Assembly (NCBI RefSeq): GCF_019059575.1
Contig: NW_024881713.1
Coordinates: 310,001-374,000 of the forward strand
Direction of reading: 5' to 3'
DNA length: 64,000 nt
DNA from: Amphibalanus amphitrite
Lineage: Eukaryota > Arthropoda > Thecostraca > Balanomorpha > Balanidae
Position 1 is the first letter of the stretch; every line of letters begins with the position of its first letter. Positions 2,601-60,200 of this stretch are shown piece after piece. The position numbers were made by a program, and so were the translations under genes. Under the pieces are notes generated by a model, which was not told where the DNA came from, searched no databases, and saw only the letters and a program-made list of their open reading frames with translations.

Positions 2601-5600
2601 CTAACTCACGTTCTGCTTCCTCGTGCGCGGGTAGACGAGAAACAGCAGCAGCTGCAGGCCGCAGATGCACGTGCAGATGATGTTTGGCACCTGTAATGGA
2701 GAAAGGCGGTATGAGGCGGTGACAATGCAGGACGTCAGCTTCCCGTTCACGGTAATTCGCAAATACAAGTCCGACAAGTGAGGATAGCTGTGCAAGAATG
2801 AAACACTGTGCCACTGGGCTCACTTCACACTTGTATAGTAAATTTTATAGTACACTGGTGGAAAAAACATTACGGCAACAATTAGCTGCCCGACCCGAAT
2901 TGGGATGCCGTAGTTGTACGACGCTGCCGTACCTGGACGAAGCTGTCTCCGATCATGGTGCCGTAGACGGCCCACTGCAGCATCACCAGGAAGGTAACGA
3001 CCAGCAGCGGCAGCGGCAGCGACTCGGTCGACTTGCTGCGGATCACCTCCGCCTGGGGGCGGGGGGGGGGGGGGCGGAGGGGACGGCGGGGCTCAGTGAA
3101 TCGGACACGGCCGAGGGGGACAGTCGTCAACGAACACGGGGGAGGAGGGGAGGCAACGGGGTCCAAACAGGGAAAAAACGAGGGGAATAGTCGGAAAACG
3201 GAAAAACGGGAGAGAACCATTTTCACGTCCATATCACGATCACCATCCGGCATGCAATACCTATATTACATCGATATTGTATGTATAAAGGAATTAGGAA
3301 AGAGCCCGTGTTACGAAGGTGAGCCGTAGCCCCTATCAGCCCAAAACTCCCTCCATATTCTGCGGACTGACCACAGTGGTATCAAATACATTCCCTACAT
3401 TACGCAAATGAAGCAGAGTGCGGACTAACCACGGAGGCGAGCGGCGAGGCCGAGAAGGCGATGCTGGCCGAGGCGGCCATGAAGCCCAGTCGGTACTGCG
3501 CCAGCTCGCGGTCCTGTTCGTGGAAGTCGACGTACCAGTAGACGGCGGCAATCAGCGCCACCATCGCCGCGACCTGACGCCGCACCGCCGTCAGAGACAC
3601 CTGTCAGGTCAGAGGAAACACACAGCTTAGTCAGATGCATAGCGACGGCCAGAGGAAACACACAGCACAGTCAGACACCTACCGGCGGTCAGAGGAAACA
3701 CAGCAGTCAGATGCATAGCGGCGGCCAGATGAATCACAACACAGTCAGACACCTACCGGTGGTCAGAGGAAACACACAGCACAGTCAGACATCTGACGGC
3801 GGTCAGAGGAAACACAGCAGTCAGAAACCAACCGGCGGTCAGAGGAAACAGCACAGTCAGACACCTACCGGCGGTCAGAGGAAACACATCAGTCAGACAC
3901 CTACCGGCGGTCAGAGGAAACACACAGCTCAGTCAGACACCTACCGGCGGTCAGAGGAAACGACACCTACCGGCGGTCAGAGGAATCGCAGCACAGTCAG
4001 AAACCTACCGGTGGTCAGAGGAAACACACAGCTCAGTCAGACACCTACCGGCGGTCAGAGGAAACACAGCTCGGTCAGGCACCTGGTGGCGGCGGCGGCA
4101 GCCAGAGGAAACACAGCACAGTCAGACAGCAAGAGGAAACACAGCACAGTCAGACACCTATCGGCGGTCAGAGGAAACACAGCACAGTCAGACGCCTACC
4201 GGCGGTCAGAGAAAACACAGCTCAGTCAGACAGCCAGAGGAAACACAGCACAGTCAGACAGGCAGAGGAAACACAGCACAGTCAGACACCTACCGGTGGT
4301 CAGAGGAAACACAGCGCCGACTGAGCACCCGGAGCAGCGCTTCTAAAGAATATGGGCTAGAAGTATCTCAGTTAGATCAATTATGTCTTATCAATTGTTT
4401 ATAATTATCTAACAGTTAGATCCAAAAGTGCGGTATAGGGAAGGACGGCAGCTGGCTGGCAGAGCCGCGGCTGTATGGCGGCACTGAACGAGCCGCGGCT
4501 GTATGTGTGAGCGGCTGAGCCCACCCACTGACCGAGCCGCGGCTATATGTATGAGCCCATCCACTGACCGAGCCGCGGCTTTATGGCGGCACTGACCGAG
4601 TCGCGGCTATATGTGTGAGCGGCTGAGCCCACCCACTGACCGAGCCGCGGCAGTAGCGGTAGTAGAAGGCCAGGTAGGCGGCCTGTATCAGCAGACCGGA
4701 CAGGTTCACCGCCATCATCGGCGCATCTCGGATCACCGTACCGTACTTGAACCACACCGAGCAGCTGAAACAACACAGACAGACGTAGTGATTAGACACG
4801 CAGCGGCAAACCGCAGAGTCTGCAGTCGGGGCGGTGAGACACACTGTCTGAACAGTGAGACACGGCCGAGTCCGGGCGATGAGACACAGAGTCGGGGCGG
4901 TGAGACACAGAGTCGGGGCGGCGAGACACAGAGTCCGGGCGGCGAGACACAGAGTCGGGGCGATGAGACACAGAGTCGGGGCGGCGAGACATAGAGTCCA
5001 GGCAGACACAGAGTCGGGGCGGCGAGACACAGAGTCGGGGCGGCGAGACACAGAGTCGGGGCGGCGAGACACAGAGTCGGGGTGGCGAGACACAGAGTCC
5101 AGGCAGACGGACGCCCGGAGAGAGCGACACAGATTCCGGGCAGTCAGACACAGAGTAGGTATGGGGAATGAGACATGGCGTTCGGCGGGGCAGCTGGGCA
5201 CATGGCACTAGGGAAACTGCACCGAGTGGTCAGCACGGTGGTTAATGAATATTTGATGGGCCTGAAAGCAACGATCACGATGCCAAATACGCCAGCACCA
5301 TCGAAATTGACCACACGAACATGCCCCGAGGGAAAGACTATTAGCTAACCAAATCTAACAGCCAACTCAAGTTGAACAGCTAAGTATTCCCCAGTCATTG
5401 ATGAAGGTTCCTCTATGTAGACCTCAGCTGCCGGCGGTAGGACAATCATACTGCTGTCTGCTACTGATACTGACCTGAACGTTCCTGCGGCGAATGGCAA
5501 ACCGGATACGTCTCCAGCCTCGCCCTTCCGTCGTACTTTTAGGCAGATCGGCCTGCCGCGGGGAACGGAAACGTCAGACGAAACACAATACACACTGACC

Positions 5601-5944
5601 GGCCTGCCACGTGGAACGGAAACGTAAGACGGCACAGTACACTACACACCTACTCAGGCTGCAGCGCGGAATGGTAAGCAAGGCAGACGACAGGGCAGTG
5701 CCAATACCCATTAAAAGTAGCACAGCGAGACTACCCATGAGAGATGAAATAAAAACAGCTATTTTATATCCCAAGAAATAATGAGAAATAATGAGCCTTA
5801 GGGACTTGATTATGATGTTGAACTACTGCCACAAGGCTTCAATTTGCTATGGCTTCTAGGCGCTTGTACTCACACCCCTGTGAGGAATTGGCCGATTGTG
5901 CTGATGGTCGCAGTTACTGATATTATCGTCTTGGCACTCATCAT
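2601..5944 (-). CDS. SWEET: SWEET family sugar transporter (SLC50A1-like), complete six-exon model
   Basis: Predicted bidirectional facilitator of mono- or disaccharides, seven membrane helices built from two MtN3/saliva repeats. Coding exons on the minus strand are 5944-5874, 5552-5475, 4764-4641, 3600-3430, 3052-2933 and 2690-2601. All introns are GT-AG and all phases agree, giving 217 aa, the usual family length (about 210-230). Exon 1 starts MMSAKTIISVTATISTIGQF. Hallmarks follow in order: VPICLKVRRKGEAGDVSGLP (residues about 24-43), CSVWFKYG, NLSGLLIQAAYLAFYYRY, then in the second repeat SPLASV, EVIRSKSTESLPLP and LQWAVYG, then VPNIICTCICGLQLLLFLVYP and a short charged tail. ATG 5944 is chosen because it opens the first helix. 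A good acceptor (tttgtttcag) 14 bases upstream of the initiator cluster implies a spliced 5' UTR. Sequence-wise the family call is secure; the transported sugar cannot be inferred. Confidence 0.93.
3590..4330. repeat. Minisatellite that includes the 3' splice site of SWEET exon 4
   Basis: A unit of about 38 bp (core ctaccggcggtcagagg, aaacacagcacagtcagac) is repeated about 18 times with insertions and deletions. Read on the minus strand, units give cctctgaccgccggtag followed by GTGTCTGAC. The real junction is cctctgacctgacag followed by GTGTCTCTGAC. The array therefore repeats the polypyrimidine tract, the acceptor and the first bases of exon 4. Confidence 0.85.
4455..4651. repeat. Tandem copies of the 5' splice site of SWEET exon 3
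   Basis: The last 11 bases of exon 3 plus the donor (minus strand gccgcggctcg then gtcagtg) recur at about 4526-4543, 4562-4579 and, with changes, 4589-4606 and 4481-4500. The genuine site is at 4651-4635. Spacers include tatatgtgtgagcggctgag. Confidence 0.85.
4828..5110. repeat. 19-20 bp minisatellite in SWEET intron 2
   Basis: About 14 copies of gagacacagagtcggggcg with single-base variants. It lies wholly inside the intron and creates spurious open frames on both strands. Confidence 0.9.
5541..5640. repeat. Two-copy tandem duplication over the 3' splice site of SWEET exon 2
   Basis: The real acceptor (minus strand cgttccccgcggcag then GCCGATCTG) is followed upstream in the intron, about 51 bp away, by a copy reading cgttccacgtggcag then GCCGGTCAG. 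The unit spans exon start, acceptor and upstream intron. Confidence 0.75.
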
Positions 5945-6764
5945 GTCATGTATAAAACTTCTGGAAGCTTAAAACTGAAACAAAATCATTTCACAATGCA
6001 CCAAGGGTATTTATGGTACCTACCACAAAACCAGAAGTGAAATCACCCCAATGTCCATGCACATTGCACAGTTAATATATCAGCAAACACCATGAATGGC
6101 CATGATCAATTGATGCTGAATGCAAGAGATAATGCTAACTCTGAGAGGATGTCTTTGTCTACCAACTAGGCACATACGCAGGGTGACCGGTGAGATGGCT
6201 GGGTTTTATCAAGTTATTGTGACTTTTTGGAGTTTTGGTGACATGTAAGTATCATATCTTGATTTAGGATGTCAAATAATGGAAGAATGTCTCAAATTTT
6301 TCCTCTGAAAAGTGTGCCGGTCCTAAAGTAAATATTTACCACAAATTCAGTGAGGGGACCGGCCGTGCGCGGCTGTGTGCGCACGTTTAACTTTGGCCTC
6401 TAAATTCTGCCATAGAACTGGAATTGTGCAGTCGGAGGGTAGAGGGCAGGGTCACCACAACAAGCTTCGCTTTGCGGAGGCTCTGTCCTTGTGAATCCTT
6501 CCTATCATAAGGTTCGGAGTTTTGGACTAAATTTATAAAAAAATAAAAAATATGGGAATTATTGGATGATCAATGATATAGATGAAATTATGGAAAAAGC
6601 CAATAACTTGATATATGCAAATTGCAATACCAGCCAGAGACCACAGGCTTTGGTAAAAACTGGATTGCATCAGCTGGCTGGCCAGCTGGCGACATACAAT
6701 TGGTATTTAAATATAGATATAAGTGAGGTAGTAGGATGACATAAATATTTCAAATCAAAATGGC
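5945..6764. other. Sequence upstream of SWEET coding exon 1, no feature recognised
   Basis: AT-rich, low coding potential. It is probably intronic if the 5' UTR exon near 14 kb is real. Confidence 0.35.
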
Positions 6765-6770
6765 TTTAAA

Positions 6771-7263
6771 GGGACTATCCCACCTTTAACATGGTTTGAG
6801 TTGAGATAGCCAAGTTTGCGGCGAGGTTCAGAAACCACTATCTATCTAGGTTGCAACCCCCGCGGCCTCTTGGTGTTGAAGAAATTTGTTCCCTTCATTT
6901 GAAAATGGGCCTTGTACAAGGCCCCATCTTCAACATGGAGCGACCGTTAGTGTGACGTCACCTCGTTTAGTCATTCTGATTTAAATGGGTTTGTTCGTTG
7001 AAAAATCGCTTAAAACTTGGTCTGAACTTTGTTGCGGTGCCTACAGAGTAAAAAGAATCAGCTTTATGACAGTAATGTGGCCTGGGGAAGGAGGTAATTT
7101 TGGGCTGTGACGTCACATATTTGAAAGTTTGTGTTTGGAATATGGGAAGCCTAAGATGTTTAATGAAAAATAAATGCCAGAACCGTGTTCCTGGTCATCC
7201 AATCTATAAAGTCGGGCACAATTTAACTGGTTTTAACAACATTTTAGAAGGTGGGATAGTCCC
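6771..7263. mobile_element. MITE with TIR gggactatcccacctt, flanked by TTTAAA
   Basis: The ends are inverted (left gggactatcccacc, right ggtgggatagtccc), and TTTAAA lies on both sides (6765-6770, 7264-7269). No coding capacity. The right TTTAAA is shared with the next element. Confidence 0.75.
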
Positions 7264-7269
7264 TTTAAA

Positions 7270-7734
7270 GGGACACTCCCACCTTAACATTAGTTTTGAG
7301 TTGAGATAGCCAAATTGGTGGCCATGGCCTGCAAATACCGGTTTGGGCACTCACAACATCGACAAATGCTTTAATTCGGAGATATGGAATTTCAAACTTG
7401 CAGTTTTCGGATTCTAAGGGGCTAGTGCATTGGTATGCCCCCTTAGAATTTGTGACGTCAGCGGAGATCTAACGATTTTTAAATCTTTTACTAAAACGTT
7501 TGGTAGCACGCGGTGGTATATGCTGCTTTGCGCGCAACAAATGCCGCACTTTCAAATAAAGTCGCTAGGAACAGCGGGGATCCCAAAAAGTAAACAAAAG
7601 TAAAAGTCTAATATCTTGAAAACCGGTGAATATTTTTCGATGAAATTTGGTAGATATTCGTTTTCGCTCTTTCTGAACCGAGCGACATCACTTTCGTGCC
7701 AATTCATTAACTTTTTTGAAGGTGGGAGGGTCCC
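7270..7734. mobile_element. Second MITE of the same family, abutting the first
   Basis: The left end gggacactcccacctt and right end aaggtgggagggtccc are inverted repeats. Flanks are TTTAAA (7264-7269) and TTTAAC. A right-hand fragment of the same family lies near 13.74-13.90 kb. Confidence 0.7.
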
Positions 7735-7876
7735 TTTAACTGAAAAATTTATGGGTAAATATTTACCTATTCTTTTATATCTAGCATTGATATGTAAGAA
7801 GCTCGGTATTTGTCAAGTTTAGGTCCTAACTACAATTGTGACGCTGTTGATACAAATATGTAACAGCAAAAATTTT

Positions 7877-8015
7877 AGGTTTTAGGTTAGGTTAGGTTGT
7901 AGGTTTGTAGGTTTTAGGTTGTAGGTTGGTAGGTTTGTAGGTTTTAGATTGTTAGGTTGTAGGTTTGTAGGTTGTAGGTTGGTAGGTTGTAGGTAAATAT
8001 GTAAGGTTAGGTCAG
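7877..8015. repeat. Degenerate TTAGG-type array
   Basis: Runs of taggttaggttagg pass into taggtttgtagg and taggttgtagg variants. (TTAGG)n is the canonical arthropod telomere repeat; this is an internal, decayed or convergent tract. Confidence 0.55.
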
Positions 8016-8544
8016 GTTTGATTGTTTTTTCTTTTATTTGCGAGGCATATAAGTATCATTTTTTGATTCAGGATGTCAAATAATGTAAGAATATGTAAAA
8101 ATTATCCATGAAATCTGCTTAGGACTTAAACTTGACATTTACCAGCTCCACCAGAAGCTCTGCTAGCGCCACCATATGGCGCCAGCTGGCAAATAATCCA
8201 GTTAATACCAGGGCCCCGGGATAATTACAATTATTGACATATCAATATTGATGATTGACAACCATTGCCATTGCAGGCGATTTTTCTGTTGACAAAAGTC
8301 GTCCTTTCATATCTCAGAGGTCCACATTCTCACACCTCACATTGGTACTGGGATGTCTATTGCCTATATCAATAAAAAAGAACAGAAATTATTGTAGCTA
8401 TCTATGATAATTCAGAATTTTCAGGTTTATATGGCTTTGTATTTTACGACCTAACCAAAAGGCTATAAAACAACTGGGCACAGCGCCACGCCTCGTCTCA
8501 GAAGCGTCAGCGTAGCTGTTATCATTCATGTGGCAGAGCTAAAG

Positions 8545-8912
8545 TACTGACATATTTTACCCGCTGATGACTGGAGTGGACAACACTATTCGACCGCCAC
8601 CCTTGCAGTCATTATATAACTCAGGAACTACTGGACCAATCCGACCGAACGAAACATCATTCGAATCAGGGGGTACGACTTTATCAGCCGTTTCGAAGAT
8701 CGTGACCCCAGGTGATCTCGGTGACCTCAAAAGGCCAACTTGGCATTGACACCTACCTATTGCTGCCATTCTATAACTCAGGAACTATTGGGCCGATCGC
8801 GACGAAGAGATTGCCAGTCGATTCAGCGTATGTGATTTCATCAGCCGTTTTGAATATGGTGACCTCAGGTGACCTCGGTGACCTTGAGAGGTCACATGAC
8901 CGCTGTGAACTA
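8545..8912. repeat. About 150-bp tandem repeat, left part
   Basis: Units contain ctcaggaactactgggccg, atttcatcagccgttttgaa and ggtgacctcaggtgacctcg. The array is split by inserted elements and resumes at 11.27 kb. Confidence 0.8.
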
Positions 8913-10269: not shown

Positions 10270-10291
10270 TACCTATAGCAGCCGATCTATA

Positions 10292-11263: not shown

Positions 11264-11265
11264 TA

Positions 11266-11773
11266 CCTCAGGAACTACTGGGCCGATCGTGACGAAAACA
11301 CCACCGGTCGATTCAGCGTATGCTATTTCATCATCCGTTTTGGATATGGTGACCTGAGGTGACCTTGGTGACCTTGGGAGGTCATATGACCGTTGTGGCC
11401 TATCGCAACCATTCTATAACTCAAGAACTACTGGGCCGATCGCGACGATAACAACACCAGTAGAATCAGCGTATGCGATTTCATCAGCCGTTTTGAATAT
11501 GGTGACCTCAGAAGACCTCGGTGACCTTGGGAGGTCACATGACCGTTGTGATGGCAGCCATTCTATAACTCATGAACTACTGGGCCGATCACGACGAAAG
11601 GACCACCAGTCGATTAAGCGTATGCTACTTCATCAGCCGTTTTGAATATGGTGACCTCAGGTGACCTCGGTGACCTTAGGAAATAGGAGGTCACATGACC
11701 GTTGTGGCCTATGGCAGCCATTCTATAACTCAGGAACTACTGGGCCGATTGCGAAGAAAACACCACCAGTCGA
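11266..11773. repeat. About 150-bp tandem repeat, middle part
   Basis: Three and a half units in plus orientation; attctataactca recurs at 11411, 11560 and 11720. The unit at 11601-11640 carries the uninterrupted text ccagtcgattaagcgtatgc, an empty-site reference for the next insertion. Confidence 0.85.
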
Positions 11774-11777
11774 TTAA

Positions 11778-12959: not shown

Positions 12960-12963
12960 TTAA

Positions 12964-13690
12964 GCGTATGCGATTTCATCAGCCGTTTTGAATATGGTGA
13001 CCTCAGGTGACCTCGGTGACCTCAAAAGTTCAAAATTACGTTTTCGCCTTTTGCAGCCATTCTAGGTATAGGTAATTCAGGAACTACTGGGACGATCGTG
13101 ACGAAAACAACACCAGTCGAATCAGCGTAAGTGCGATTTCATGTGCCGTCTCGAATACGGTGACCTCAGGTGACCTGCCATAGGCCACAACGGTCATGTG
13201 ACCCCCAAGGTCACCAAGGTCACCTGAGGTCACCATTTTCGAAACAGCTGATGAAATTGCATACGCTGATTCGACTGGTGGTCTTTTCGTCGCAATCAGC
13301 CCAGTAGTTCCTGAGGTATAAAGTGGCTGCCATAGGCCACAACGGTCATGTGACCTCCCAAGTTCACCAAGGTCACCTGAGGTCACTATGTATATTCGAA
13401 ACGGCTGATGAAATTGCATACGCTGATTCGACTGGTGGTCTTTTTTTGTCGCGATCGGCCCAGTAGTTCCTGAGTTATAGAATGGCTGCAATAGGCGAAA
13501 ACGTAAAGCTGACCTTTTAAGGTCACCGAGGTCACATGAGGTCACCAAATTCGAAACACATGATGAAATCGCATACGCTGATTCGACTGGTCTTGTTTTC
13601 GTCGTGATTGACCCAGTAGTTCCTGAGTTATAGAATGGCTGCAATAGGCAAAAACGTAACGTTGACCTTTTGAGGTCACAGAGGATGCCA
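12964..13690. repeat. About 150-bp tandem repeat, right part with orientation switch
   Basis: The first unit is in plus orientation. From about 13,175 (ccataggccacaacggtcat) the units are reverse-complemented, making a head-to-head junction. Confidence 0.8.
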
Positions 13691-13736
13691 AGCTATTGCT
13701 TCTAAGTTCTAAATGATGTCGTAGGAACTTGGTAAG

Positions 13737-13897
13737 AACATAGGAGGTCCCAAAAAGTAAACAAAAGTAAAATTCTAATATCTTTGAAGCCAGTGATTAT
13801 TTTTCAGTGAAATTTAATATACCTATATTTATTTTTTATCTTTCTGAACCGAAAGGTCACTTCTATGCTAGTTTGTTAACTTTCTGGCCCCTTTAAT
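13737..13897. repeat. Fragment of the 7.27-kb MITE family
   Basis: It shares cccaaaaagtaaacaaaagt and the following 130 bases with 7585-7735, without a recognisable left end. Confidence 0.6.
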
Positions 13898-14053
13898 TCT
13901 TGGAATTATGTTGAAGCTTCGTGCATTTTTTTAGATTCTGGAGCTGGTCATTGGGGTCTTTGAACCCTTGATCGCCGAAATAGTATATAACAGGATAACG
14001 TAAGACATTCGAAATGACAGCCATTCAGGTGCGTCAGACTTGACGGTACTTAC

Positions 14054-14420: not shown

Positions 14421-14489
14421 GTAAACAATTACAATATGTGTGTGCACATATAATGTAGGTGGACGCATATAATGTCCTGGACTGCCGAC

Positions 14490-20370: not shown

Positions 20371-20671
20371 CAGCTTGTAGATTTGGTTTACAGTGCATCA
20401 GTAATCCATCGCAGCTGGAAATACCGGCTGATCGCTCGCAAACCTGTTATGTGCTCAAGGCACGAGCGTAAAATTCCACAAGACGCGGAAATGTTCGCTG
20501 TGCGGCGACTGGTGCTCATCTCTTGGCTCATCTGTCCCAATTTGGCGAGCCTTTGTCCATGAGGTCATTTATCCCCCATTATACCCGGGTCACACGCTGC
20601 TTTGTTTGTAGCGTAACCACACGTTGCATCCGGCGTTCATCTGCCCGCTGCACTATCCGTCTCTCTGTCGT

Positions 20672-20800
20672 CAGTTCAGCCATGTCCTGCGCCCCTCTGA
20701 CCACTCTGTCCGCCTCTGTCGTCAGGTCAGCGATGCCCCGCGCCCCTCTGACCTCCCTGTCCGCCTCTATCTCCAGGTCAGCGATGTCCCGCGCCCCGCT
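20672..20800 (+). repeat. 51-bp triplication covering the acceptor and start codon of the small plus-strand gene
   Basis: Three units place ATG at 20682, 20733 and 20784 with the text cag-gtcagcgatg-cccgcgcccc. The period of 51 bp keeps all three ATGs in one frame. Only the third unit leads into the signal peptide. Confidence 0.8.
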
Positions 20801-21041
20801 GGCCGCGGTGCTGGCCGTCTGTCTGCTGGCCTGCTCTGCGGACGGCAGCGAGCCCTGCACAGCCGTCTCCTGCCCGCCGGGCCAGTTCTGTTTCCGCGGC
20901 TCGTGTGTGCCGCTAATGGTGCACGGCCGCTCCAAGCCCCACCCACACCACAGCGGAGCCGGCCCGGCCGCCGCCGCCGCGCCCACACTGCCCCTGCTGC
21001 CGCTGCTGGCCGCCACGCTGCTGGGACGACACCGGGTCTGA
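20784..21041 (+). CDS. Small secreted cysteine-motif protein with GPI-anchor-like tail (gene A)
   Basis: 85 aa. Residues 1-21 form a signal peptide (MSRAPLAAVLAVCLLACSA). Then comes a compact PCTAVSCPPGQFCFRGSC block with cysteine spacing C-x4-C-x5-C-x4-C, a basic/histidine linker, small residues (SGAGP), and a hydrophobic C-terminus (LPLLPLLAATLLG) that resembles a GPI attachment signal. This predicts a cell-surface protein of unknown function. The start is chosen because an acceptor (ctctatctccag, 20776) precedes it by 7 bases. Two upstream in-frame ATGs belong to duplicated copies of the same junction. Gene B on the opposite strand, 1.6 kb away, has the same architecture. The stop codon is part of the first unit of a tandem repeat. 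The family is not recognised; a half-EGF-like fold is possible. Confidence 0.55.
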   Translation: MSRAPLAAVLAVCLLACSADGSEPCTAVSCPPGQFCFRGSCVPLMVHGRSKPHPHHSGAGPAAAAAPTLPLLPLLAATLLGRHRV

Positions 21042-22621: not shown

Positions 22622-22909
22622 TCAGAGCAGGCGGAGGGCGGCAGCGAGGGCAGTCACAGCCAGCAGTGCCGCGCCCAGGGACCCGGCCCCGGAGCCGGCG
22701 CCCGCCTGAGGCGGGAAGCTGCTGCCCGCGTGCGCCGAGTCCGTCTTGAAGCGCGAGTCGATCTTGATGCACGAGGACTTGAAGCTGAGCCCGTCGGCGA
22801 CCGGCATACAGATTTCGTCGGAGCCACAGGGGTTGTCGGAGCAGGCCTGCGCGCTGCACGCGGCCACCAGAGCCAGCAGGAGCACCACGGAAGATACACG
22901 GAGCGACAT
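22622..22909 (-). CDS. Small secreted cysteine-motif protein with GPI-anchor-like tail (gene B)
   Basis: 95 aa. Signal peptide at residues 1-20 (MSLRVSSVVLLLALVAACSA). Then a cysteine block, ACSDNPCGSDEICMPVADG, with C-x4-C-x5-C-x10-C spacing. A hydrophilic linker (KIDSRFKTDSAHAGSS) follows, then GAGSGAGS and a hydrophobic end (LGAALLAVTALAAALRLL), which resembles a GPI signal. It is a predicted surface protein and a probable distant paralogue of gene A, with which it is convergent. The initiator ATG (22909) follows an acceptor, ctgctcctgcag, by 7 bases, so a 5' UTR exon lies upstream. Degenerate copies of this junction occur at about 22,945-22,979 and 23,079-23,113, both without the ATG. Function unknown. 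Confidence 0.6.
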   Translation of the reverse strand: MSLRVSSVVLLLALVAACSAQACSDNPCGSDEICMPVADGLSFKSSCIKIDSRFKTDSAHAGSSFPPQAGAGSGAGSLGAALLAVTALAAALRLL

Positions 22910-34599: not shown

Positions 34600-35085
34600 G
34601 CCCGGGTGACCTACGCCCGGGTGGCCTACGCCCGGCTGACCTACGCCCGAATTGCCTACTCCATCGAATGTCTACGCCCGGGTGACCTACGCCCGGCTGA
34701 CCTACGCCCGAATCGCCTACTTCATCGAATGTCTACGCCCGGGTGACCTACGCCCGGCTGACCTACGCCCGAATCGCCTACCCCATCGAATGTCTACGCC
34801 CGGGTGACCTACGCCCGGCTAACCTACGCCCGAATCGCCTACTCCATCGAATGTCTACGCCCGGCTGACCTACGCCCGGCTGACCTACGCCCGAATCGCC
34901 TACTCCATCGAATGTCTACGCCCGGCTGACCTACGCCCGGCTGACCTACGCCCGAATAGCCTACTCCATCGAATGTCTACGCCCGGCTGACCTACGCCCG
35001 GCTAACCTACGCCCGAATCGCCTACTCCATCGAATGTCTACGCCCGGCTGACCTACGCCCGGCTGACCTACTCCATCGAATGTCT
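34600..35085 (+). repeat. 65-66 bp satellite array, plus orientation, about 7 copies
   Basis: Unit: one to three cctacgcccggctga/gtga blocks, then cctacgcccgaatcgcctac and tccatcgaatgt. The same satellite is present in opposite orientation at 45,393-45,843. Confidence 0.95.
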
Positions 35086-35527
35086 ACTGCTCCCCTCCTG
35101 TCCGATTAAAGAGTGAAGATTTCGCATACCAAAGTGACCCTTCCGGGGGAACCGGCACCCGCAAGTCAGGTAACAATGGGAAGGGTCGGAGGGACCGACC
35201 GCCGCGCCGCATGGTGACAGGTGATTCCCGGGACGTCCGAGCGTCGCCTTTCAGACGCATCGCCGCCTCCCCCCCCCCCGCCGCGCCGTGCCGCGCCGCA
35301 CAAAGCAGACGGACCCTGTCGCGGAGCGAACTACCCGACCAGGCTGTCATCATCGGCGGAGAGCCTGAACTGCTTTTTTTTATCGTTGAGCTGATCAAGC
35401 TTGAGTAGCCATGCTTGCGTATTTCACGCTTCAGCCCTGCTGTGAGCCATGTTTTATGATTTCTCATTTCAGATCTTAACAATGATCTTAGGTAGGAAGA
35501 ACCGTGAGAAACGCTCCTCCCCCTTAG

Positions 35528-44275: not shown

Positions 44276-45392
44276 ATTACTTTATAAAAATGCTGAAGTG
44301 TTGCAAGTGATTGACAAATATTGTCCAAAGCATGCTGCCTTTGTCCAACCAAATTCCGATTTGGGCATAGGACAAAATCGGAATTCTGAAGGTACAAAAT
44401 CCAATTGGCACCACTCTAACAGATGTGGTAAGGTTGTGATAGGTTTTACCGAACGGAGATATAGACGATCTGCACAACTGACGAGAGAAGCCAACCTCTG
44501 TCAACTGGCTGGTGTGCAGCAAGCAGATATTGATATTCTGCAACGGTTATTTTTGTTGTTGTTTTAATCTTTCTTCAATAAGGTACCTATGTTAGAGCTG
44601 TTGTGCCTATTTGTTTATACACCAAACAACATCGGTGATAGCCAGATAACTATTTCATGGCGTGCAAAGAAAGACTGTTCAAGTTACCCAACGGTCGGGT
44701 TATTTGAATACACCGTCACTTGACGGAGAAGCAAGGCTTTACTTCACATTTTTCAAAAAAATATGTTCAACTTGAAACTTGATGCACTCTATGGCAATGA
44801 CTCTTGTGAAGTTGTTCTTAGGAAAATAAAAATTTATTTCATTGGCTTCCACTCGCCAAACCCGCTTTTCCTATAGCTCAATCAAGGGATGAATCACTGG
44901 GTGGTTCTTTCGACCCCTCCTCACCCTCCTGCAATTGAAGTTAGCCGTTGGCAAAGACACTAATTCGTGCAGGGGCTCATTTTCACTTGTCCTTTTAATG
45001 TAATCGGTGACTTAAGCCAGCCGGCCAAATGAACAAAAATCCATACAAACCCAGGTGATGCCACGGGCCCACGGCCCTCATCCTTGTCAGCGTCCACTCC
45101 CTCGGCGGCTTGTCAGCGTCCACTCCCTCGGCGGCGGCGGCGGCGGCCCGCCGTGCCGTGCACCGCGGCATGTTACCTCTCGCCGCGTCAGGGGCCGCGG
45201 GGCGGGACGCTACCCCCCGCTGCGACAGGCGACCCCTGGGCCTGGGCACCGCCGCGGCGGGCGACGGACGACAATAGCGCAAACAAAGGATGGGGCCGCC
45301 AGTCAGCCGGCGTAGTGAATGGGTAAATCCTTACTCGATAACACAGCAGGGACTGCTCCACGAACACGGGCAGGCCGTACGGCAGTAGACAT
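44276..45392. other. No gene recognised; short GC-rich duplication at 45.09-45.14 kb
   Basis: cagcgtccactccctcggcg is duplicated in tandem and followed by (ggc)n. Frames are composition-driven. Confidence 0.35.
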
Positions 45393-45843
45393 TCGATGGA
45401 ATAGGCGATTCGGGCGTAGGTCAGCCGGGCGTAGGTCACCCGGGCGTAGACATTCGATGGAGTAGGCGATTCGGGCGTAGGTCAGCCGGGCGTAGGTCAC
45501 CCGGGCGTAGACATTCGATGGAGTAGGCGATTCGGGCGTAGGTCAGCCGGGCGTAGACATTCGATGGAGTAGGCGATTCGGGCGTAGGTCAGCCGGGCGT
45601 AGGTCAGCCGGGCGTAGACATTCGATGGAGTAGGCGATTCGGGCGTAGGTTAGCCGGGCGTAGGTCAGCCGGGCGTAGACATTCGATGGAGTAGGCTATT
45701 CGGGCGTAGGTCAGCCGGGCGTAGGTCAGCCGGGCGTAGACATTCGATGGAGTAGGCGATTCGGGCGTAGGTCAGCCGGGCGTAGGTCACCCGGGCGTAG
45801 ACATTCGATGGAATAGGCGATTCGGGCGTAGGTCACCCGGGCT
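45393..45843 (-). repeat. 65-66 bp satellite array, inverted copy, about 7 units
   Basis: gtaggcgattcgggcgtagg, tcagccgggcgtagacattc units: exact reverse complement of the array at 34.6 kb. It stops about 100 bases before the promoter island of the bHLH gene. Confidence 0.95.
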
Positions 45844-45929
45844 GATCCCACCGGATCGCCGGCCGTCGGCCGCTCACGCCCGACACCCCTCTGTAAGGGG
45901 AGCCGGCGCCGGGAGTCGGCCGGCGCCGG

Positions 45930-46061: not shown

Positions 46062-49000
46062 ATGGAGGTCCGGCCAGGTGACCTGTGTCCCGGCCCCGAC
46101 TGTTACGGCGCTGCGGCGGAGCTCACCGGACCAGTACGCGTGTTCGCCAACGCAAAGGAACGAGATCGAACCAACAAGTAAGCGACTAAACAGCTTTGGT
46201 TGTGTGCACTGTGCAATGTGCGACGTGCGTGTAAAGTGCTATGCGATCTAATTCGACCTAAATGGTTGAGTCCCTATAACAATGAGCCTGACCTCTCAGT
46301 GTGCCAAACTACTAACCAAACCAATGAAAATGAAAAGATATTCGAACAGTGACAAAAGTAGTGTCTGCTTGACGAACATATGTCGCATGTCCAACCGCTT
46401 CAGTTTGAAGATCATAACCGAATTTCTCGACAATAACTCTCGATGCAATTTAGGACAGTCTCTGAGGAAGGTACTAATTAGCTGAAACTGAGCTGCCGCA
46501 CCACGGCCCTTACCAGCATAACGGAACTACTATCTTAGCTGCTGGACGATGATCCGACTTTGAACTGAGATCACCGTTCCAAGTGACTTATTACCAGGCA
46601 GTAGGCACCAGCACGAGTAGGTAAATGGCAGCAATCGATGCAGCTCGACATGACGGACAAAAACCTCTACCAAACTCGCTCATTTATGACATTTTTTGTG
46701 AAACTATTTGCCTGTTTGAGGCTAAAGGCCACCCTTTGGGTCGTCCACCTTCACTCTGAAGCCATCGGTTGCTCTAAATTATAGCAAAAACTTAACCCTC
46801 GCATGTGTAGGGGGGGGGTCGGATGGACCCCCCATGGCATTTTTCGCAAATAACTCGCGCAAAAAAGGCCGATCGTGACGAAACTTTCAATACCCTCGAG
46901 TTCATCAATTTTACACCTATTCTGAAAATTTCATGACCCTGACCCAAGTGACTTTTGATCTGTGACCTATTGCTCGAGGTCATGTTTGGCCGGAATCGCG
47001 ATTCGGCGTATGTCGGCTCGCATTACCCGCGCGTTTGTACGCTTTTCTTGGTTTCCAACGCTCACACATGTGATTTGATGTTGCTGCTATGTATTAGGGT
47101 GGATGTCAAGGTCACCTGAAGGTCAGGTCAGGTCATTGACCTTTGGGGACCTCGGTTCACTTTTTCGAGTTTTACATGTTTCTAGGCTAGTTTTTGGAGC
47201 TGAATTCGAATTAAGAAACCATTTGAACATTTACGAAATAGTTTTGGTGCCTTCGTAATATGTTACGTAGCTGTCAGAGGCGGTTGACACGTACTAGGTA
47301 CGAATACCCGTCACGACCCCTACTGGTTGACCTGACCTGACCCGACCTGGTCTAAATGCTTCAAGACATCATCGGTGATCAAAACTAACACGATATTCGT
47401 GCTCAGCACCCCAAAGAACCATTATAACAGCCACACTTTACGACTTTCTAACAGGTCCCGATTTTCCCGACTTTTGGATCATTGACCTGACCTGGAAGGT
47501 CAACCAATGACCTAAGACTTTAAAATTGGGTATCATCGGCTTCCACTCGTCACGGGCAACACGCTCGTTTTTTCCGCGAAGCTCTAGCTCGCTCGATCAG
47601 GGGCCAAACGGCAAGCGGGGATCCAACCGACCCCCCCCCCCTACAAGTTAGAAGCTGGCAAACGCCGCACACATGCGAGAGTTAACCCTCGCCTGTGCGC
47701 GGCGTTTTACAGCTTCCAATGTGAGGGAGGAGGGGTCGGTTGGAGCCCCCTTGCCGTTCGGCCCCTGATTTAGCTAGAGCTTCGCGGAAAAAACGAACGC
47801 GTTTCCCGTGACGAGAGCAAGCCGACGATACCCAATTTTAAAGTCTTAGGTCATTGGTTCACCTTCCAGGTCAGGGCAATGAACCATACCTAAGTCGGGA
47901 AAATCGGGACATGCTAGAACTTCGCAAAGTAAAGCTGTTCCGAATCGCGATTGATTCAGGCCAAACATGGTCTCGAGAAATAGGTCACAGGCCAAAGGTC
48001 ATTTGGGTCAGGATCATGACATTTTCAAAGCAGGTGTAAAATTTATCAACTCGAGAGATAGGTACTAAAAGTTTCGTCGTGATCACTGATCAGCCGCTTT
48101 TCGGGAGAGTTATTTGCGAATAACCGAGAGGGGGGTCCATCAGACCCCCTACAAGTGCGAGGGCCAACCCTCACACCAGCTCTGGACCCCTCCCCCTCCC
48201 CCTTTGGGGGAGGGGGAGGAAATGGATCCCCGAAACGGGCATTTGGTGAGGTCATTTATCTGATCTTACCTACCCTAACATAAATGTAAGAAATCAGAGT
48301 TAGGTAGTTACCTTCTACGGAGTAACCGTCCTACTGCCATTTATCATGCATCAGAAGTACCAAACTCTTACGACTTTAGACTTTAGTAGCATGTAGGAGT
48401 GATACGGCATTTTTTAGATTTTATTGAATTCCATCTGGTCACCTGACGACTGACCTTGGGTGACCTTGGTGAAAAAATACAAGTAATGTAAAATCGATGC
48501 GTTACTTATATTTTGTTACGGGTTTCACGGCACTTCTTATTGTAATCGATAGCTTTATACCTATATGTTTCGTTTTCTTTTCAACGATCGCATCGAGTAC
48601 CGACCTTCTGACTGCCCGTCATCTCACCGACCGGCGACCTCACACCAGTCTTCCAACCGCCCCGCCGCCCTCTCACCAACATCACACCAATCTTCCAAGT
48701 TCCAATCGCCCCGCCGCCCTCTCACCAACATCACACTAGCCTTCTGACCGTCCTCCGCCCAGCCTCAGACCAGCCTTCTGACCGTTCTCCGCCCAGCCTC
48801 ACACCAGCCTTCTGACCGTTCTCCATCCAGCCTCACACCAGCCTTCTGACCGTTCTCCGCCCAGCCTCACACTAGCCTTCTGACCGTTCTCCGCCCAGCC
48901 TCACACCAGCCTTCTGACCGCCTCGGGACATTCTTACAGCGTGAACACCGCCTTCAGCCGGCTGCGGACCATGATACCGACCCAGCCGGCCGACAGGAAG

Positions 49001-49070
49001 CTCTCCAAGATCGAGACGCTGCGACTGGCCTGCAGCTACATCACACACCTGGACACCCAGCTGTCGGCAG
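46062..49070 (+). CDS. bHLH transcription factor, TCF15/scleraxis (paraxis) type, partial
   Basis: Exon 1 is 46062-46177 and exon 2 is 48940-49070, joined phase-correctly (donor gtaagc, acceptor ttcttacag). The 82 visible residues have a short N-terminus ([20 protein letters not shown]), the basic region [19 protein letters not shown], the loop [17 protein letters not shown], and helix 2 [15 protein letters not shown]. The sequence [15 protein letters not shown] with YI.HL is diagnostic of the paraxis/scleraxis group within class A bHLH factors, E-box binding proteins acting as E-protein heterodimers. Exon 2 ends one base into a codon (gca g), so a further exon is needed. It was not identified with confidence; a phase-compatible open segment begins after ctgtgtcag at 52430 and runs to a stop at 52722, but it lacks a known motif. 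Both sides of exon 2 are bordered by minisatellites. Confidence 0.85.
46796..47681 (+). mobile_element. TTAA MITE, subfamily B, full length
   Basis: TTAA at 46792-46795 and 47682-47685; ends ccctcgcatgtgtaggggg and cacacatgcgagag. Perfect IR-1 at 47130-47142. Lies in bHLH intron 1. The right TTAA also starts the next element. Confidence 0.9.
47686..48163 (-). mobile_element. TTAA MITE, subfamily B, internally deleted and inverted
   Basis: Starts ccctcgcctgtgcgcggcg directly after the shared TTAA; ends gtgcgaggg before ccaa. It contains both ends of subfamily B in reverse orientation with the middle missing (junction near 47,940). Confidence 0.8.
48600..48925. repeat. 36-38 bp minisatellite leading to the 3' splice site of bHLH exon 2
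   Basis: cagccttctgaccgttctcc, gcccagcctcacac units, pyrimidine-rich, run to within 15 bases of the acceptor and supply its polypyrimidine context. The first units (48.6-48.73 kb) are more diverged. Confidence 0.85.
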
Positions 49071-49290
49071 GTGAGACTTCACACAGACAGGTGAAACTTC
49101 ACACAGACACCCAGCTATAGGCAGGTGAGACATCTCACAGACAAGTGAAACTTCACACAGACACCCAGCTGTCGGCAGGTGAGACTTCACACAGACAGAT
49201 GAAGCTTCACACAGACACCCAGCTGTCGGCAGGTCATATCACAGGCAGATGAAGCTTCACACAGACACCCAGCTGTCGGCAGGTGAGACA
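49053..49290 (+). repeat. 54-bp tandem repeat containing the 5' splice site of bHLH exon 2
   Basis: Each unit holds cacccagctgtcggcag followed by gt. The true donor is at 49071; copies are at 49125, 49179, 49233 (gtcata) and 49283. Spacing is 54, 54, 54 and 50 bases. Copy 2 carries an in-frame TAG (cagctatag), so a downstream donor would truncate the protein just after helix 2. Confidence 0.9.
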
Positions 49291-49703
49291 TCTCCTGCCG
49301 ACGACAGTCACTCATGAGTAGTGATATATGACACGGGCTTCGTCATCCACCTACGTGCAATGGGATGAGATGGCATCCAGACTCACATGGGAGGGTAATG
49401 GGCTCCGAAGCGAGATTATATCCAGACTCACGTGTGAGCCGGCTTCAAGTTCCAATAGACATTTCAAAGTTGATGATCGGGGTGGCATTTGAAATCCGCT
49501 GTCAATGGGCAATGGCTCCAGGGTGTTGGAGGGTCATGGATCGAAGCATCATCCTCACTCAGGGGTGTCCAGCGGCCGGCCTTGATGTCAGCCCTCAGCT
49601 GAGCGCAGATATTTCGATACAAAACGAATTATATCGTTCACCTCTCACATGTTAAACACCAGTCTCGAGCTCTGGGTCGCAAATATGTCACCTTAGGTAA
49701 GTA

Positions 49704-51712: not shown

Positions 51713-51714
51713 TA

Positions 51715-53640: not shown

Positions 53641-53797
53641 CAGTAGCGGCGGAACACCTCCAATTAAGGGGGGGGGGGACACTGCCGACTTTTGGTCCCA
53701 TTCTTTCCATGCACCGCCCATTTTTAGGGCTTATGTTAAAATGCCAAAATCAAAGGGGGCACGTTGCCCCGGTGCCCTCCCCGTTCCGCCGCCTATC
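53641..53797. mobile_element. hAT-type MITE, 157 bp
   Basis: gatggggc flanks both sides (53633-53640, 53798-53805); ends cagtagcggcggaac and gttccgccgcctatc are inverted with mismatches in the outer five bases. Poly-G tract inside. Confidence 0.6.
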
Positions 53798-54293
53798 GAT
53801 GGGGCAGCGTCAATCATGTGGAAGCAGACAAGAGAGGCTGGATTGAATACGATCAAACTTTGTCACAATTTACACTTCACATCATGTTTATTTTCCGAAT
53901 TCGACTTTGATTTATTTACATCAACCCCCTGCCCTGTTGTGTAGACGCTTAGCGGTAGTAATTGCAGAGGCCTTTTCATTTGATATAGACTACAAGGAAT
54001 ATGTGGCGCGCGAGTATGCAATTGAGCATTACATGTGTCAGTTTGGAAGCAAACATAGACAATGGCACTGGGCGATTGCACCTTCACATGATATGCATGG
54101 ATAGACACAAATGTGCTTATATGCGTCAATCAAGTAGCATGTCAACTCTGATTGAGCGCCGTGCAGTTGGCCACGGTCCGTGTCCCCCCGTTTTCAGCGG
54201 GTTCTCGACCGCTGTCTGACCCGGCGCATGCCAGTCCCCTGTCTCGTGTCTTAGTGGGTCTTCGGCCGCTGTTTGACCCGGCGCTTGGCCGGG

Positions 54294-57200
54294 TCACGTG
54301 TCCCCCGTGCTCATCGGGTCGTCAGCCGGCACGCTCGACCGCAGCCCCTCCCCTCGCTCCCCATCCCCGGTCCGAGCCCTCTTCAACGGCCGGCCCGCCA
54401 GCCACCAGTCGCCCGTGCCGCTGCCGACCGAGCCGTCACTGGGCCGCAGTGACCCGCCACTGAGCCGCAGTGACCCGCCGCTGGCCCGCAGTGACCCGTC
54501 ACCGGGCCGCAGTGACCCGCCGCTGGCCCGCAGTGACCCCCTGCCGACCCCGGCGGCCCGCGCCGACCCCTCGCTGATCCCCAGCCCGCTGCTGGCGCTC
54601 ACCAGGGTCTCACAGCGCAGCCGCGAGTAGTAGTAGCTGCCGCGACGCTCGGCCGGGGTCGTGTCGATGTCACCGCTGGTCACCTCCATCTGCTGACCCA
54701 TGGGGCGGTGTCCGCTGTCCAGGAGGGGCGAGCTGGCTCGTCTGGAGGTGGCCAGTGACCAGTCACTGCGCCCTGTTGTCAGGTCGGAGGTGCCGGGGTC
54801 GGTGCCGCCCGCTGCCCGCTCAGCCCCGCGGCCGGCGGGCTCGGCTCTGATGACCGGGGTCTGAGAGACCCCGCTGGTGACCGGCAGTCTCTCTGTATAC
54901 CTGGACGGACCGGCGGCGGCCGCCCGCGGCTCGTACCCGGCCCGGGACCAGCCGAGCGGGTCCTCGGAGACGTCCGAGACGCGCCCTCCGGGGCCGGGCC
55001 GGGGCGGCGGCCGGTCACTGGACCTGGTCAGCGACCTGCCAGGACCGCCGGAACCTGTGTGAGCCGAGCCCGCTGCCGCTGCTCCCCGTCCCTCCGCGCC
55101 GGAGCCGGGCCGGGTGAGGGGCGCCTCCGGGTCCTCAGACCAGGTGGACGACTGCTCCCGGGGCCGGCGGCTGCCGAGCGGCCCCTCACTGGCCCCGGGC
55201 CGGTCGGAGCGGCGCATCTGCTCGTCAGACGAGTACACTGCGCGGTAGCGCGCGCCCGGGACGCGGCCGGCGCCTGCCCGGGGCACTGCTGTCGGCCCTG
55301 AGCTGGTGTCGGCGCCGGTCCGGGACGAGCTCTCCCCCCGAGTGGCCGTGGAGGTGCTCGCCGGCGCTCCGCGGCCGGCCGGCCGGGCCGCGGCGCCACC
55401 CTGACAGGGCGCGGAGACGGGCGTCTCGGAGCTGCCGGTGGCGGAGTCGGCCGCCCCCGGGTGCGGCACTCCGTCCCTCCTCAAACCCGGCGCTGCCGCC
55501 GCGCCGCCGGGGGTGACCGCCGGCCCGGCCACTGAGGAGCCCGGCACGGGCCGCTCGCTGCCGGGCGCCGCGGCCCCGCCCGCCACAGAGTCCTCCCACG
55601 GGTCCTCGGCGCTGCGGTGCTCCTGCCACACGCGGCGCAGCAGCTCCGCGGGGGCCTCCGAGTCCAGGTCGGCGCGCAGGAACGTCTCCACGGCGCGGCG
55701 CGCTCTCTCGACAGCCGCCTCCTCGACTCGGAGCAGCTCGGGGTCGGGGCAGAGGTCCGAGCCGGACACCATTGCCTCCATTACCTGACGGCAGAACATG
55801 GGGAGGGAGCCAAGGCTGAGTCAGGAGAAAGATTTTAGATAGTGGATCATGACCTCACCGATTGCATTAGGTACTCAGTTCCCTCATTTTTCCCCATCAT
55901 AAAACTATTTCATATATGATGGGCGTGATATCTTATTGAAGCTTCGGATGGAAAGCACATCTTCCCTGGCAGCCGGCGGGCGCCGATATTACAGTGGTTG
56001 GACACCCAAAAGCTACCAACGTCTTTGCATTTCAGACCGACGCACTGCACAGAGCGCACGGTGGCGCCCTCCCTGTTCGGTTTTGTGCATCCGTTCTCAC
56101 CTGTTCGGCCCTCTGGACGAGCCTTTCTGGCAGGCAGGCAGCCGTGGCGGCCGCCAGCGCGTAGCTCCTGCCCGCCGAGCCGGTGGCCATCTGATAGAGG
56201 AAGGTGACGGCCCGGCCGCCCGGCTCGGCCACCAGTTCGGGGCACACGGGAGTCACCAGCTGCGAGGGCGGCAGCAGCGAGCACAGACGGTGCACGTGTG
56301 TCGACACCAGCACGTGCGGGCAGCGCTCGCGGCGCGCCAGCAGCCCGGAGAGGGCGGCGGCCAGCAGGGCGGCGCCGTCCTCTGCCAGCGTGCCGCCGCC
56401 GAACTCGTCCACAGCGAGCAGCGCGCGCTCGCCGCTCTCGGCCACGGCGGCGCAGAGCTGGCGCAGCTCGGCCAGGAAGGCGGAGCCGCAGCCGCCGCCG
56501 GCCGCCGCGTCGCCGCCGGTGCCGGTCAGCGCTGGCGGCGCCACGGTGAAGAGGGCGCGCTGCACGCCCAGCCGCGCCGCGTCGGCCGCCACGAACGAGC
56601 CGGCCTGCGCCATCAGCACGGCCAGCGCCACCTGGCGCAGGTAGACCGACTTGCCGGCGCCGTTGGCGCCTGTCACCAGCTTGAGGCGGTCGCGGTGCGG
56701 CTGCCGGCCGCTGCTGAAGTCGTTGGGCACCACCAGGTCGGCGCACAGCTCCAGCAGCGGGTGCCGGCTGCGCTGCAGCTCCAGCACGTTCTCGTCGACA
56801 AACTGCGGTCACAGCCGGACCGGGCAGCCGTCAGCAGGGCGGCATACGCTGCTGTGTCGGTCCTGTCTGTTTTATCAATAACTTCCTATTGACTTGAGAT
56901 CACTGATTTTAAATTGAAGTTGTTTCAAACGCATCGCTGTCTAGTTTTCAACGTTACGTTGACTTATGTTAACAACACTTAACATATGCTAAAACCTATT
57001 TTCTCCCCACTTATCTCTCACTCTCCTCCTCCTTCCTCACTCACTCACTCACTCACTGTCACTCACTCACTCACTCACTCACTCACTCACTCACTCACTC
57101 ACTCACTCACTCAGTCTCACTTACCCGGGGTCGGACGTACCCGAACTCGTTGGCTGCCTTGGCCAGGGCCATGAGGGCGTCCAGTTCCCCACATAGACTG

Positions 57201-60200
57201 CACAGCTGGTGAATCTCCTCCGCTGCGGCCACCACTAGCGCCGAGAGACGCACCATCACCTGCAGCAGAGCACCAGTACAGTTACACCACCACCAGCGCA
57301 GAGAGACGCACCATCACCTGCGGCAGAGCACCAGTACAGTCACACCACCACCAGTGCCGAGAGACACGCCTTCATGCATCACCTGTCAGAGAGCACCACT
57401 GTACAGCCAGTAACACCGCCAACTGCGCCGAGAGACGCACAATGAACTGCGGCAGAGAGCACCACAGTAACGTCACCAGCGCACCATTACCTATAGGAGA
57501 GCACCAGTACTGTAACATCACCTGCGCCAAGAGGTGCAGCGTATTTACCTGTGGGTGGGCACTGTACCGTAACAGTAAGAGTAGGAGCAGTACATACTTA
57601 ACGGCACACCAGTCGCTGTTCCGTCACCATTACTGTGCAGTGTGCCACACCACAAAATAAACAGCATCAGAGCAAGACCAACATCTCGATGATATAATAA
57701 GAGAGAACAAGCACGTCAGTTCCTGACCTTCTGTCGTCGTGTGCCTGTCCGTCTCTCCCCCCCCCCCCCCCGCATTAAATACCTGCGTCTCCCTGTCTCG
57801 GATGGCGGTGGCCACGTCTCCGACGCTCTCATCCAGAGCGTCGCAGCGCGCCGACTTGTACAGCACGCGGCCGCGGTCCTCGAACTGGAAGCGCAGGCCG
57901 GGCAGGTCGCGCTGCTGCTCGCGCGTCAGCGGCTCCCGCCACTCGTCCACCATGACCAGGAAGCCGACCTGCGGCAGGAAGACCATGCTGCACGTCTGGA
58001 TCTGGTCGGGCAGCGCGGCCTGCTCGGCGGCCATCTCGGCCGATAGCAGCTCCGGCAGCGCCGCGTACGCCCGCTTGTGGGCGTCCAGCGTGTCGTCCAG
58101 GCCCAGGTGGACGGTGAAGCGGCGCAGCTCGCGCGTCTCGGCCAGGTTGACCGTCTGGTGGAGTGTGTGCAGCAGTCGCTGGACGGCGGCGCAGTCGGCG
58201 CCGGCCGCCCGGCCGAACACCGCCACGCCGGCCGGCAGGTCGCGACACACCTCGGCAGCCACCACGCCGCCGTGCAGCGTGTCGTACAGGGTGCGCCAGT
58301 CGCCGCTCAGGCCGCGCGCATTCCGCATCCGGCTGAGCAGCGGCGTCAGGTTGCGCACGCGGCGCAGACACGTCTGCAGCGAGGTCACCACGTCCTCATT
58401 AGCGGGCCGAGTGAAAAACTCCACCGCGTCCAGGCGCGCCTCGATGCGCCGCCGGCTGGTGAGCGGCTGCATCAGCATGCGGCGCAGCTGGGCCACGCCC
58501 AGCGGCGAGCAGCACTTGTTGAGCACGGCGAACACGCTCAGACCCTCGCGCGTCGTCTCGGCCTTGAAGGAGGACGGATGCCGATCGGCGGCGAACACCT
58601 GCAGGGTGCGGAACGCGCCGCTGCTGACGTACATGGCATCCTCCAGCGAGAGGTTCTCGATGCGCATCACCGGCTGCCGGCTGAGCGTTTCCAGCGGCCG
58701 GCGGTCCAGGTAGCGCAGCAGGCCGCCGAACGCCCGCACCATGGTCGTCTGAGCGAAGTCGACGCGGCTGGTGATGAAGTTGTAGTGCGCCTGCTCGTCG
58801 TCAGAGGTCTCTGCCGGCAGCTGGACGGCCAGCACGCGGTGGCGGCAGCTGTCGGCGCGGTAGTCGCCGGCCGGCTGCAGCTGCAGCGGCGTCTGGTCGT
58901 CGTCGCGCGGGTCGGCGGCCAGCAGCTCGGAGAGCACGGCCAGCAGCCGCTCGTCCTGCCGGCCGCTGGTGATGACCTGCCGGCGGGGACGGGGGTCGGA
59001 CGGAGGTCAGCCGCCGCAGAGGGGGTCGGACGGGGGTCAGCCGCCGGCAGAGGGGGTCGGACGGGTGGATGATGGCCCGTCATAGCTCGACTTACCACCG
59101 GCGGAAGGGGGTATTCAGTACCGCGCCGTAGTCAGTAATGCGGGGTTCGTAGAACGGCTGCGCCGCATAGCTTCGGTGAACTTTGCAGCCGGCGACTTCG
59201 GTCTTCGTCTCATTCCTTTCACTCCGAGCACGAAGTGCGCAAAAAAAAAAAAAACTAAGTCCACCGTCAGCCGTCAGGTATCCATACACTGCTAGTTTAT
59301 GGACTTCAGGGACATTCAGTGAAACTAGACTATCGGATAACGGCTACATTTAACATCAATTTGCCCACATTTCATACCATCAGTGATACGCTTATCTAAT
59401 GGCCTTTCAAGCTAACGAAACCGTCCCGCTGGCTTTTTATCAAATACCTTCTTTACACTTGCACTTTGTTCACAAACGCAAATGCAAACGTTCCCCACTG
59501 AGCAGTAATCGCCACGCACTTTCAGAATGTGGATCGCTCATGGTTGTTCAATACAATACAATACAATACATACCTTTGAGCCCTCAATGTCACAACCATA
59601 GTTATTATCATGAGCGGCACGAGCCAATAAATTTGATTCCATCCAGTACTCAAATCTCTGCGGTAGTGCGGTCATTTCAGCTGACAGCTGTGGCCACTCA
59701 GTCCAGACGGCCCTCTGCACCGGTCGGTGACCCCCCAGTCCAGTCCCCCCGGCCAGCTGGAGCCGCCGCCGGGGCCGGCGGGCGGGCATGGTGCGTGGCG
59801 GCACACGACTAGCGGTACCGCGGCGCCAGTCAGACACGGGGAGAGAGCGGCGGCAGGTGACCGGACACCGGGCGGACGGCGGACATCCGCCCGTCGGTCG
59901 GTGGAGCGGGGACAGCAGCCGACTCCGGACCAGCTGACCAGCAGTGTGCCAACATCCGGCTCCGGACCGGCCGACCAGCGGTGTGCCATCAGCCGGCTCT
60001 GGACCGGCCGACCGGCGGCGTGCCATCAGCCGGCTCCGGACCGGCCGACCAGCGGTGTGGTGTGCCATCAGCCGGCTGCGGACCAGCCGACCAGCGGTGT
60101 GGTGTGCCATCAGCCGGCTGCGGACCAGCCGACCAGCGGTGTGGTGTGCCATCAGCCGGCTGCGGACCAGCCGACCAGCGGTGTGGTGTGCCATCAGCCG

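Follow-up and report, generated by a model that had tools for sequence, protein, structure and literature searches.

Tandem arrays spanning exon-intron junctions in several genes of the barnacle Amphibalanus amphitrite

Are splice junctions the founding units of the minisatellites that touch them, or do they simply lie where tandem duplications are tolerated? The question is raised by a stretch of 64,000 nucleotides from the barnacle Amphibalanus amphitrite (NW_024881713.1, positions 310,001 to 374,000 of the forward strand; hereinafter, the window), which lies on contig C216 of the 807.5-Mb assembly and for which an earlier note had proposed that exon edges found the tandem arrays in all five genes. 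Repeat units that include a splice junction are present in the window and in other genes of the same genome; they vary between the window and a second copy of the region, one duplication is present in one haplotype and absent from the other, and duplicates are scarce in exon interiors. The arrays in the window and in the other genes are likely to be minisatellites of the type described as mirages in amphioxus, arising by frequent tandem duplication that is tolerated as long as the exon-side junction stays intact.

Splice junctions within tandem arrays of the window

The models of the SWEET, MSH5 and basic helix-loop-helix (bHLH) genes have open, contiguous frames and GT-AG junctions:

2601 to 5944, minus strand: SWEET sugar transporter gene, six exons; joined at GT-AG sites, these yield an open 217-aa protein (Pfam MtN3_slv, 1e-40)
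55000 to 63498, minus strand: gene for an MSH5-type MutS homologue, at least five exons (low end at 55000 arbitrary, 3' end undefined)
63498-63250, 58976-57783, 57259-57125 and 56802-56101, minus strand: exons of the same gene, with GT-AG junctions; a further exon runs from 55784
48940 to 49070, plus strand: bHLH exon (HLH, 8.6e-15)

The MutS homologue has an open stretch of 760 aa with matches to MutS_III (1.6e-23) and MutS_V (2.5e-33) and, in the PDB, to MutS, Msh2, Msh3 and Msh6; we take it to be MSH5, the database searches themselves giving MutS homology only. Genes A (20780-21040) and B (22625-22909) look alike by eye, both encoding short, secreted-looking, cysteine-containing proteins with hydrophobic tails; their acceptors are putative.

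The arrays that touch these genes are given below. For the copy counts, which include the true site, the sequence was searched for matches to the junction unit; a slash within a motif marks the splice junction.

5541 to 5660, minus strand: SWEET exon 2 acceptor array, three copies 51-55 bp apart at 19/31; the exon starts at base 5552
4430 to 4652, minus strand: SWEET exon 3 donor array, six copies of CCGCGGCTCG/GTCAGTG; the exon ends at base 4641
3590 to 4320, minus strand: SWEET exon 4 acceptor array, unit of 36-40 bp, 16 copies at 21/32 or better; the exon starts at base 3600
57225 to 57560, minus strand: MSH5 exon 3 acceptor array, six copies of a unit of ~58 bp that comprises the acceptor and ~30 nt of exon; the exon starts at base 57259
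49052 to 49289, plus strand: bHLH exon donor array, five copies of GACACCCAGCTGTCGGCAG/GTGAGA
20663 to 20801, plus strand: gene A array, three copies of a 51-bp unit with the putative acceptor, the ATG and the first codons
22885 to 23113, minus strand: gene B array, three copies of a diverged repeat with the putative acceptor and the ATG region
58988 to 59065, minus strand: array upstream of the MSH5 exon 2 acceptor, junction not included (Tandem Repeats Finder, TRF)

The copies are beyond chance, as none of 600 simple shuffles of the local sequence reached 22/30. The earlier note put the number of additional copies of a genuine splice site in these introns at 1 to about 18; the copies are indeed real, and the counts in the window run from 3 to 16 with the true site included. 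At the SWEET exon 4 acceptor, the true site is among the more diverged copies (22/32). Seven of the eight sites that had been listed as junction arrays are such arrays, the junction being putative for genes A and B. The eighth, at MSH5 58983-59075, is not: the TRF array leaves a gap of ~12 nt to the acceptor (58976), and the junction 30-mer has no match better than 18/30, a level attained by 12% of shuffles.

Other repeats lie in the same genes. At 57036-57113, a (TGAG)n microsatellite starts ~12 nt inside the MSH5 exon 3 donor on the coding strand; each of its repeats restates the donor-like GTGAGT, and contig C39, described below, has a similar tract at the same place. In SWEET intron 2 (4868-5099), a 21-bp array gives 11 matches at 17/21 or better versus one in C39.

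A second copy of the region

On contig C39, the genes are arranged as in the window but in reverse, from MSH5 through bHLH, gene B and gene A to SWEET. Identity to the window is 94-100% for the MSH5 rows, 98% for the gene B protein, 99% for the bHLH DNA and 97% for the gene A DNA. The SWEET rows of C39 are 70-95% identical, to be compared with only 81-97% for the window's own SWEET rows, because the matches run past the exon ends. This contig is probably the other haplotype of the region; alternatively, it may be a recent duplicate block.

At fixed thresholds, all seven arrays of the window differ in copy number between the two contigs (window/C39): 16/20 for the SWEET exon 4 acceptor, 6/4 for the exon 3 donor and 3/2 for the exon 2 acceptor, 6/5 for the MSH5 exon 3 acceptor, 5/34 for the bHLH donor, 3/5 for gene A and 3/4 for gene B, those differences that amount to a single copy being dependent on the threshold. 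The bHLH donor array differs in period as well, with 54 bp in the window versus 34 bp in C39.

Duplicated junctions in other conserved genes

A sample taken from Pfam hits comprises 73 exon pairs, namely 56 from CCT chaperonin, 7 from Sec1 and 10 from adaptin genes, or 50 pairs after merging haplotypes. It is not a random draw; the 100 myosin matches and 7 of the 10 adaptin stretches were left out. All 73 pairs received a splice call, but that made for C1015 at profile position 385, with a score of -1.2, is probably erroneous. At 22/30 or better, the acceptor is locally duplicated in 7 of the 73 introns (C297, C401, C481, C1029, C1931 twice, and C1015) and the donor in one (C1369); with haplotypes merged, these counts become 6/50 and 1/50. 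A looser single-edge count gives 5/36 (CCT) and 0/9 (Sec1) for acceptors, and 0/38 and 1/9, respectively, for donors. Duplicates cover 0.7% of exon interiors versus 2.8% of intron interiors per intron, or 4.3% when pooled.

The individual cases can be read as early stages. In a CCT intron, the acceptor is duplicated together with the exon start in C481 (copies 42 bp apart), and C222 has one copy; C401 and C887 have two acceptor copies each, and another CCT intron shows three extra acceptor copies in C1029 and two in C1931. The adaptin gene in C1015 has two acceptor copies 81 bp apart that are identical by eye over ~70 nt, half of this exon, and likewise in C268; these two contigs are identical over the compared stretch, so that there is no allelic contrast at this acceptor. 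In the adaptin gene of C1369, the donor is duplicated along with ~26 nt of exon; the sequence of C534, its candidate allele, diverges soon past the donor. In the five cases measured, the duplicated stretch reaches ~30, 11, 3, 33 and 36 nt into the exon, a variation such as random breakpoints would give.

Altogether, a tandem unit that spans an exon-intron boundary is seen in SWEET, MSH5, bHLH, CCT and adaptin genes, with duplication of donors (SWEET exon 3, bHLH and adaptin in C1369) and of acceptors (SWEET exons 2 and 4, MSH5 exon 3, CCT genes and adaptin in C1015). Given that they are found in other conserved genes and that one such duplication is confined to a single haplotype, junction arrays are neither local nor ancient.

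Origin of the arrays

Under the explanation that we favor, the genome would often make short tandem duplications of tens of base pairs. A duplication within an exon would break the protein and be removed, and one within an intron would be neutral; a duplication straddling an exon-intron junction would be nearly neutral as well because the copy that touches the exon still works and the remainder becomes intron. From two copies on, an array would expand and contract, presumably via slippage or unequal exchange. The exon-side copy, which is presumably the one normally used in the mRNA, would be held in place by coding selection.

Under this scenario, exon edges need no special role in the window. 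The coverage test, at 22/30 or better, comprised 21 junctions (10 in SWEET, 9 in MSH5 and 2 in bHLH, with genes A and B outside the test), and four of these were covered, which is a coincidence with arrays not beyond chance; the SWEET exon 4 acceptor, at 20/30, falls below the threshold of this test. Among all positions, 44.6% are covered in SWEET introns, 16.9% in MSH5 introns, 12.7% in intergenic sequence and 0-0.9% in exon interiors. Because junctions are covered no more often than intron interiors, a founding unit is unnecessary here, and the idea that exon edges seed the arrays of the window is not supported. That junctions repeatedly lie inside tandem arrays is upheld for the window, CCT and adaptin genes; the special founder role finds no support in the window and comes down to a modest acceptor excess elsewhere.

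The copies inside the introns can be viewed as decoys. Across 12 arrays, among which two loci are represented by both of their alleles, 68 inner copies keep the AG or GT, 33 of them in a single bHLH allele. If used, 62 of these are predicted to meet a stop, four to shift the frame and two to stay in frame; judging from these predictions, splicing at an inner copy would as a rule be deleterious.

Several observations speak against plain tolerance. The decoy count adds little to the case for it because stops are expected anyway in long intron stretches. Furthermore, in a subset of one haplotype (47 introns, after 26 rows from seven second-haplotype contigs were dropped, including C481 and both C1931 cases), four acceptors are duplicated, whereas drawing one interior site at random in each intron gives 1.44 on average at 22/30 (P 0.039) and 1.10 at 24/30 (P 0.016). 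Finally, the difference between acceptors and donors (7/73 and 1/73; Fisher P 0.063) is unexpected if duplications are merely tolerated. These data raise the possibility, which we consider tentative, that exon edges, and acceptors above all, are preferred starts of duplication, owing to the pyrimidine tract, the AG/GT or transcription-linked damage. In all 73 rows, which are not independent, the P values for the acceptor excess are 0.0002 and 0.011. Nevertheless, the excess is modest and the sample small; donors show none (1/47 at 22/30 and 0 at 24/30 in one haplotype), nor do junctions inside the window. Moreover, one of the seven acceptors, C1931 at profile position 253 (22/30), is doubtful, as it lies in a poly-C tract and its splice call is uncertain, and in non-cognate genes, acceptors and donors each reach 22/30 in 13 of 691 trials.

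It is unlikely that the arrays are kept for a benefit in splicing or for regulated alternative transcripts. Two features are compatible with such a role: 32 of the 33 inner copies in the bHLH allele of C39 equal the true site in donor score, and one of the two in-frame inner copies, at SWEET exon 2, is a stop-free acceptor 51 nt upstream (the other, in C297, is a weak site). However, homogeneity of copies is expected from recent expansion alone, the unequal copy numbers of all seven arrays in the two copies of the region do not fit selective maintenance, and 66 of the 68 intact inner copies lead to a stop or a frameshift.

Intron gain and intron length

The earlier note had also linked the arrays to the birth of introns by tandem duplication of exon segments containing AGGT, on the basis of four introns, three in MSH5 and one in SWEET, with CAG/GT at both ends. 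These introns do have such ends, which can be ordinary splice consensus. In the sample of other genes, AG/GT is present at both ends of 20 of 73 introns compared to 14.8 expected (P 0.007), and gains of this kind are reported for Drosophila in the available part of PMC2891723; in one haplotype, by contrast, the count is 11 of 47 compared to 8.3 expected (P 0.08). Beyond AGGT, the flanks of the 73 introns are identical at 4.86 of 20 positions versus 5.11 in permuted introns (P 0.90; P 0.82 for the 47 introns). As permutation of the introns gives ends that are at least as similar, this origin is not borne out and appears highly improbable. An assembly artefact is less credible still: assemblies can mis-size repeats in general, but the same arrays are found on two contigs, between which they differ in copy number and in their internal variants.

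Arrays lengthen particular introns, in agreement with the earlier proposal, but they do not account for most of the differences in intron length between haplotypes. Among 23 haplotype-paired introns, the length difference exceeds 50 bp in 11, and the junction is duplicated in just one of these 11 (C1029/C1931), where one copy of ~71 bp accounts for little of the 779-bp difference. Junction arrays were accordingly rejected as the main source of intron length change in this sample.

Host genome and other repeats of the window

The Chitin_bind_4 domain of cuticle proteins, which we take to be an arthropod marker, has 150 scored matches among 705 candidates in the genome, haplotype duplicates included, and on this ground the genome is that of an arthropod rather than of amphioxus or another cephalochordate. 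Both haplotypes of many genes are apparently kept in the assembly (e.g., C381/C154, C222/C481 and C401/C887), so that gene counts are inflated. An arbitrary test pattern matched 138 places in the genome, almost all of those listed with one spelling, and therefore lies inside an abundant repeat or gene family.

The window contains two more pairs of arrays. Arrays of a 61-bp minisatellite (CTACGCCCGGCTGACC...) lie at 34611-35087 and 45380-45852, ~10.4 kb apart and oppositely oriented, with best arms that are 96% complementary over 336 nt; these arrays may be the termini of an element of ~11 kb. Tandem units of 153 bp at 11267-11775 and 13207-13679, 1.4 kb apart and apparently in opposite orientation, may likewise delimit an element of ~2.4 kb, judging by eye from consensus units.

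Relationship to known systems and implications

Tandem repeats that span exon-intron boundaries are known in amphioxus as mirages, in Adh3, the globin genes BflGb6 and BflGb9, troponin C and PGBD5; according to the available parts of the two reports (PMC3087553, PMC3902484), to which all statements on mirages here are limited, splicing is normal and Adh3 is somatically unstable. The barnacle arrays have in common with mirages the boundary-containing repeats at both 5' and 3' intron ends, the retention of splice signals in many copies and the differences in copy number between haplotypes (six and three units in BflGb6). They differ in the arthropod host, in the occurrence in several unrelated genes within one 64-kb stretch and in the presence of up to 34 donor copies; in addition, the transcripts of the amphioxus genes were checked, whereas the barnacle arrays are known here from DNA sequence alone. 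The novelty that had been suggested for these repeats does not extend to their kind, which is the one already described in amphioxus.

Intron gain by tandem duplication of AGGT has been described by Rogers, Zhuo 2007, and Gao and Lynch 2009, as cited in the accessible text of PMC3087553, and in Drosophila, going by the part of PMC2891723 at hand, duplication of a proto-splice site is seen at 5 of 31 novel intron positions. The likeness consists in a tandem duplication that includes splice signals and is known in an arthropod; the difference is that there a duplicated coding segment gives rise to a new intron, whereas in the barnacle, introns that are already present acquire additional copies of their own junctions. 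Among the titles and abstract openings returned by a literature search, no arthropod report of minisatellites spanning splice junctions was found; a report on prawn lectins with repeats (PMC7536079) contains, in its available part, no junction-spanning arrays.

What appears to be new here is the arthropod host and the very long donor array; the kind of repeat is known, and a preference for acceptors is a possibility. With these findings, a curiosity known from lancelets is seen in an arthropod as well, which suggests that splice junctions become duplicated wherever minisatellites form fast. The allele pair with and without a duplicated acceptor represents the first step of array formation, and the bHLH alleles with five and 34 consecutive identical donors are a natural experiment on splice-site choice. 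It is conceivable, albeit doubtful at present, that in this arthropod lineage junction-spanning duplication is frequent, ongoing and preferentially started at 3' splice sites, and that the spliceosome picks the site nearest to the exon among up to dozens of identical ones.

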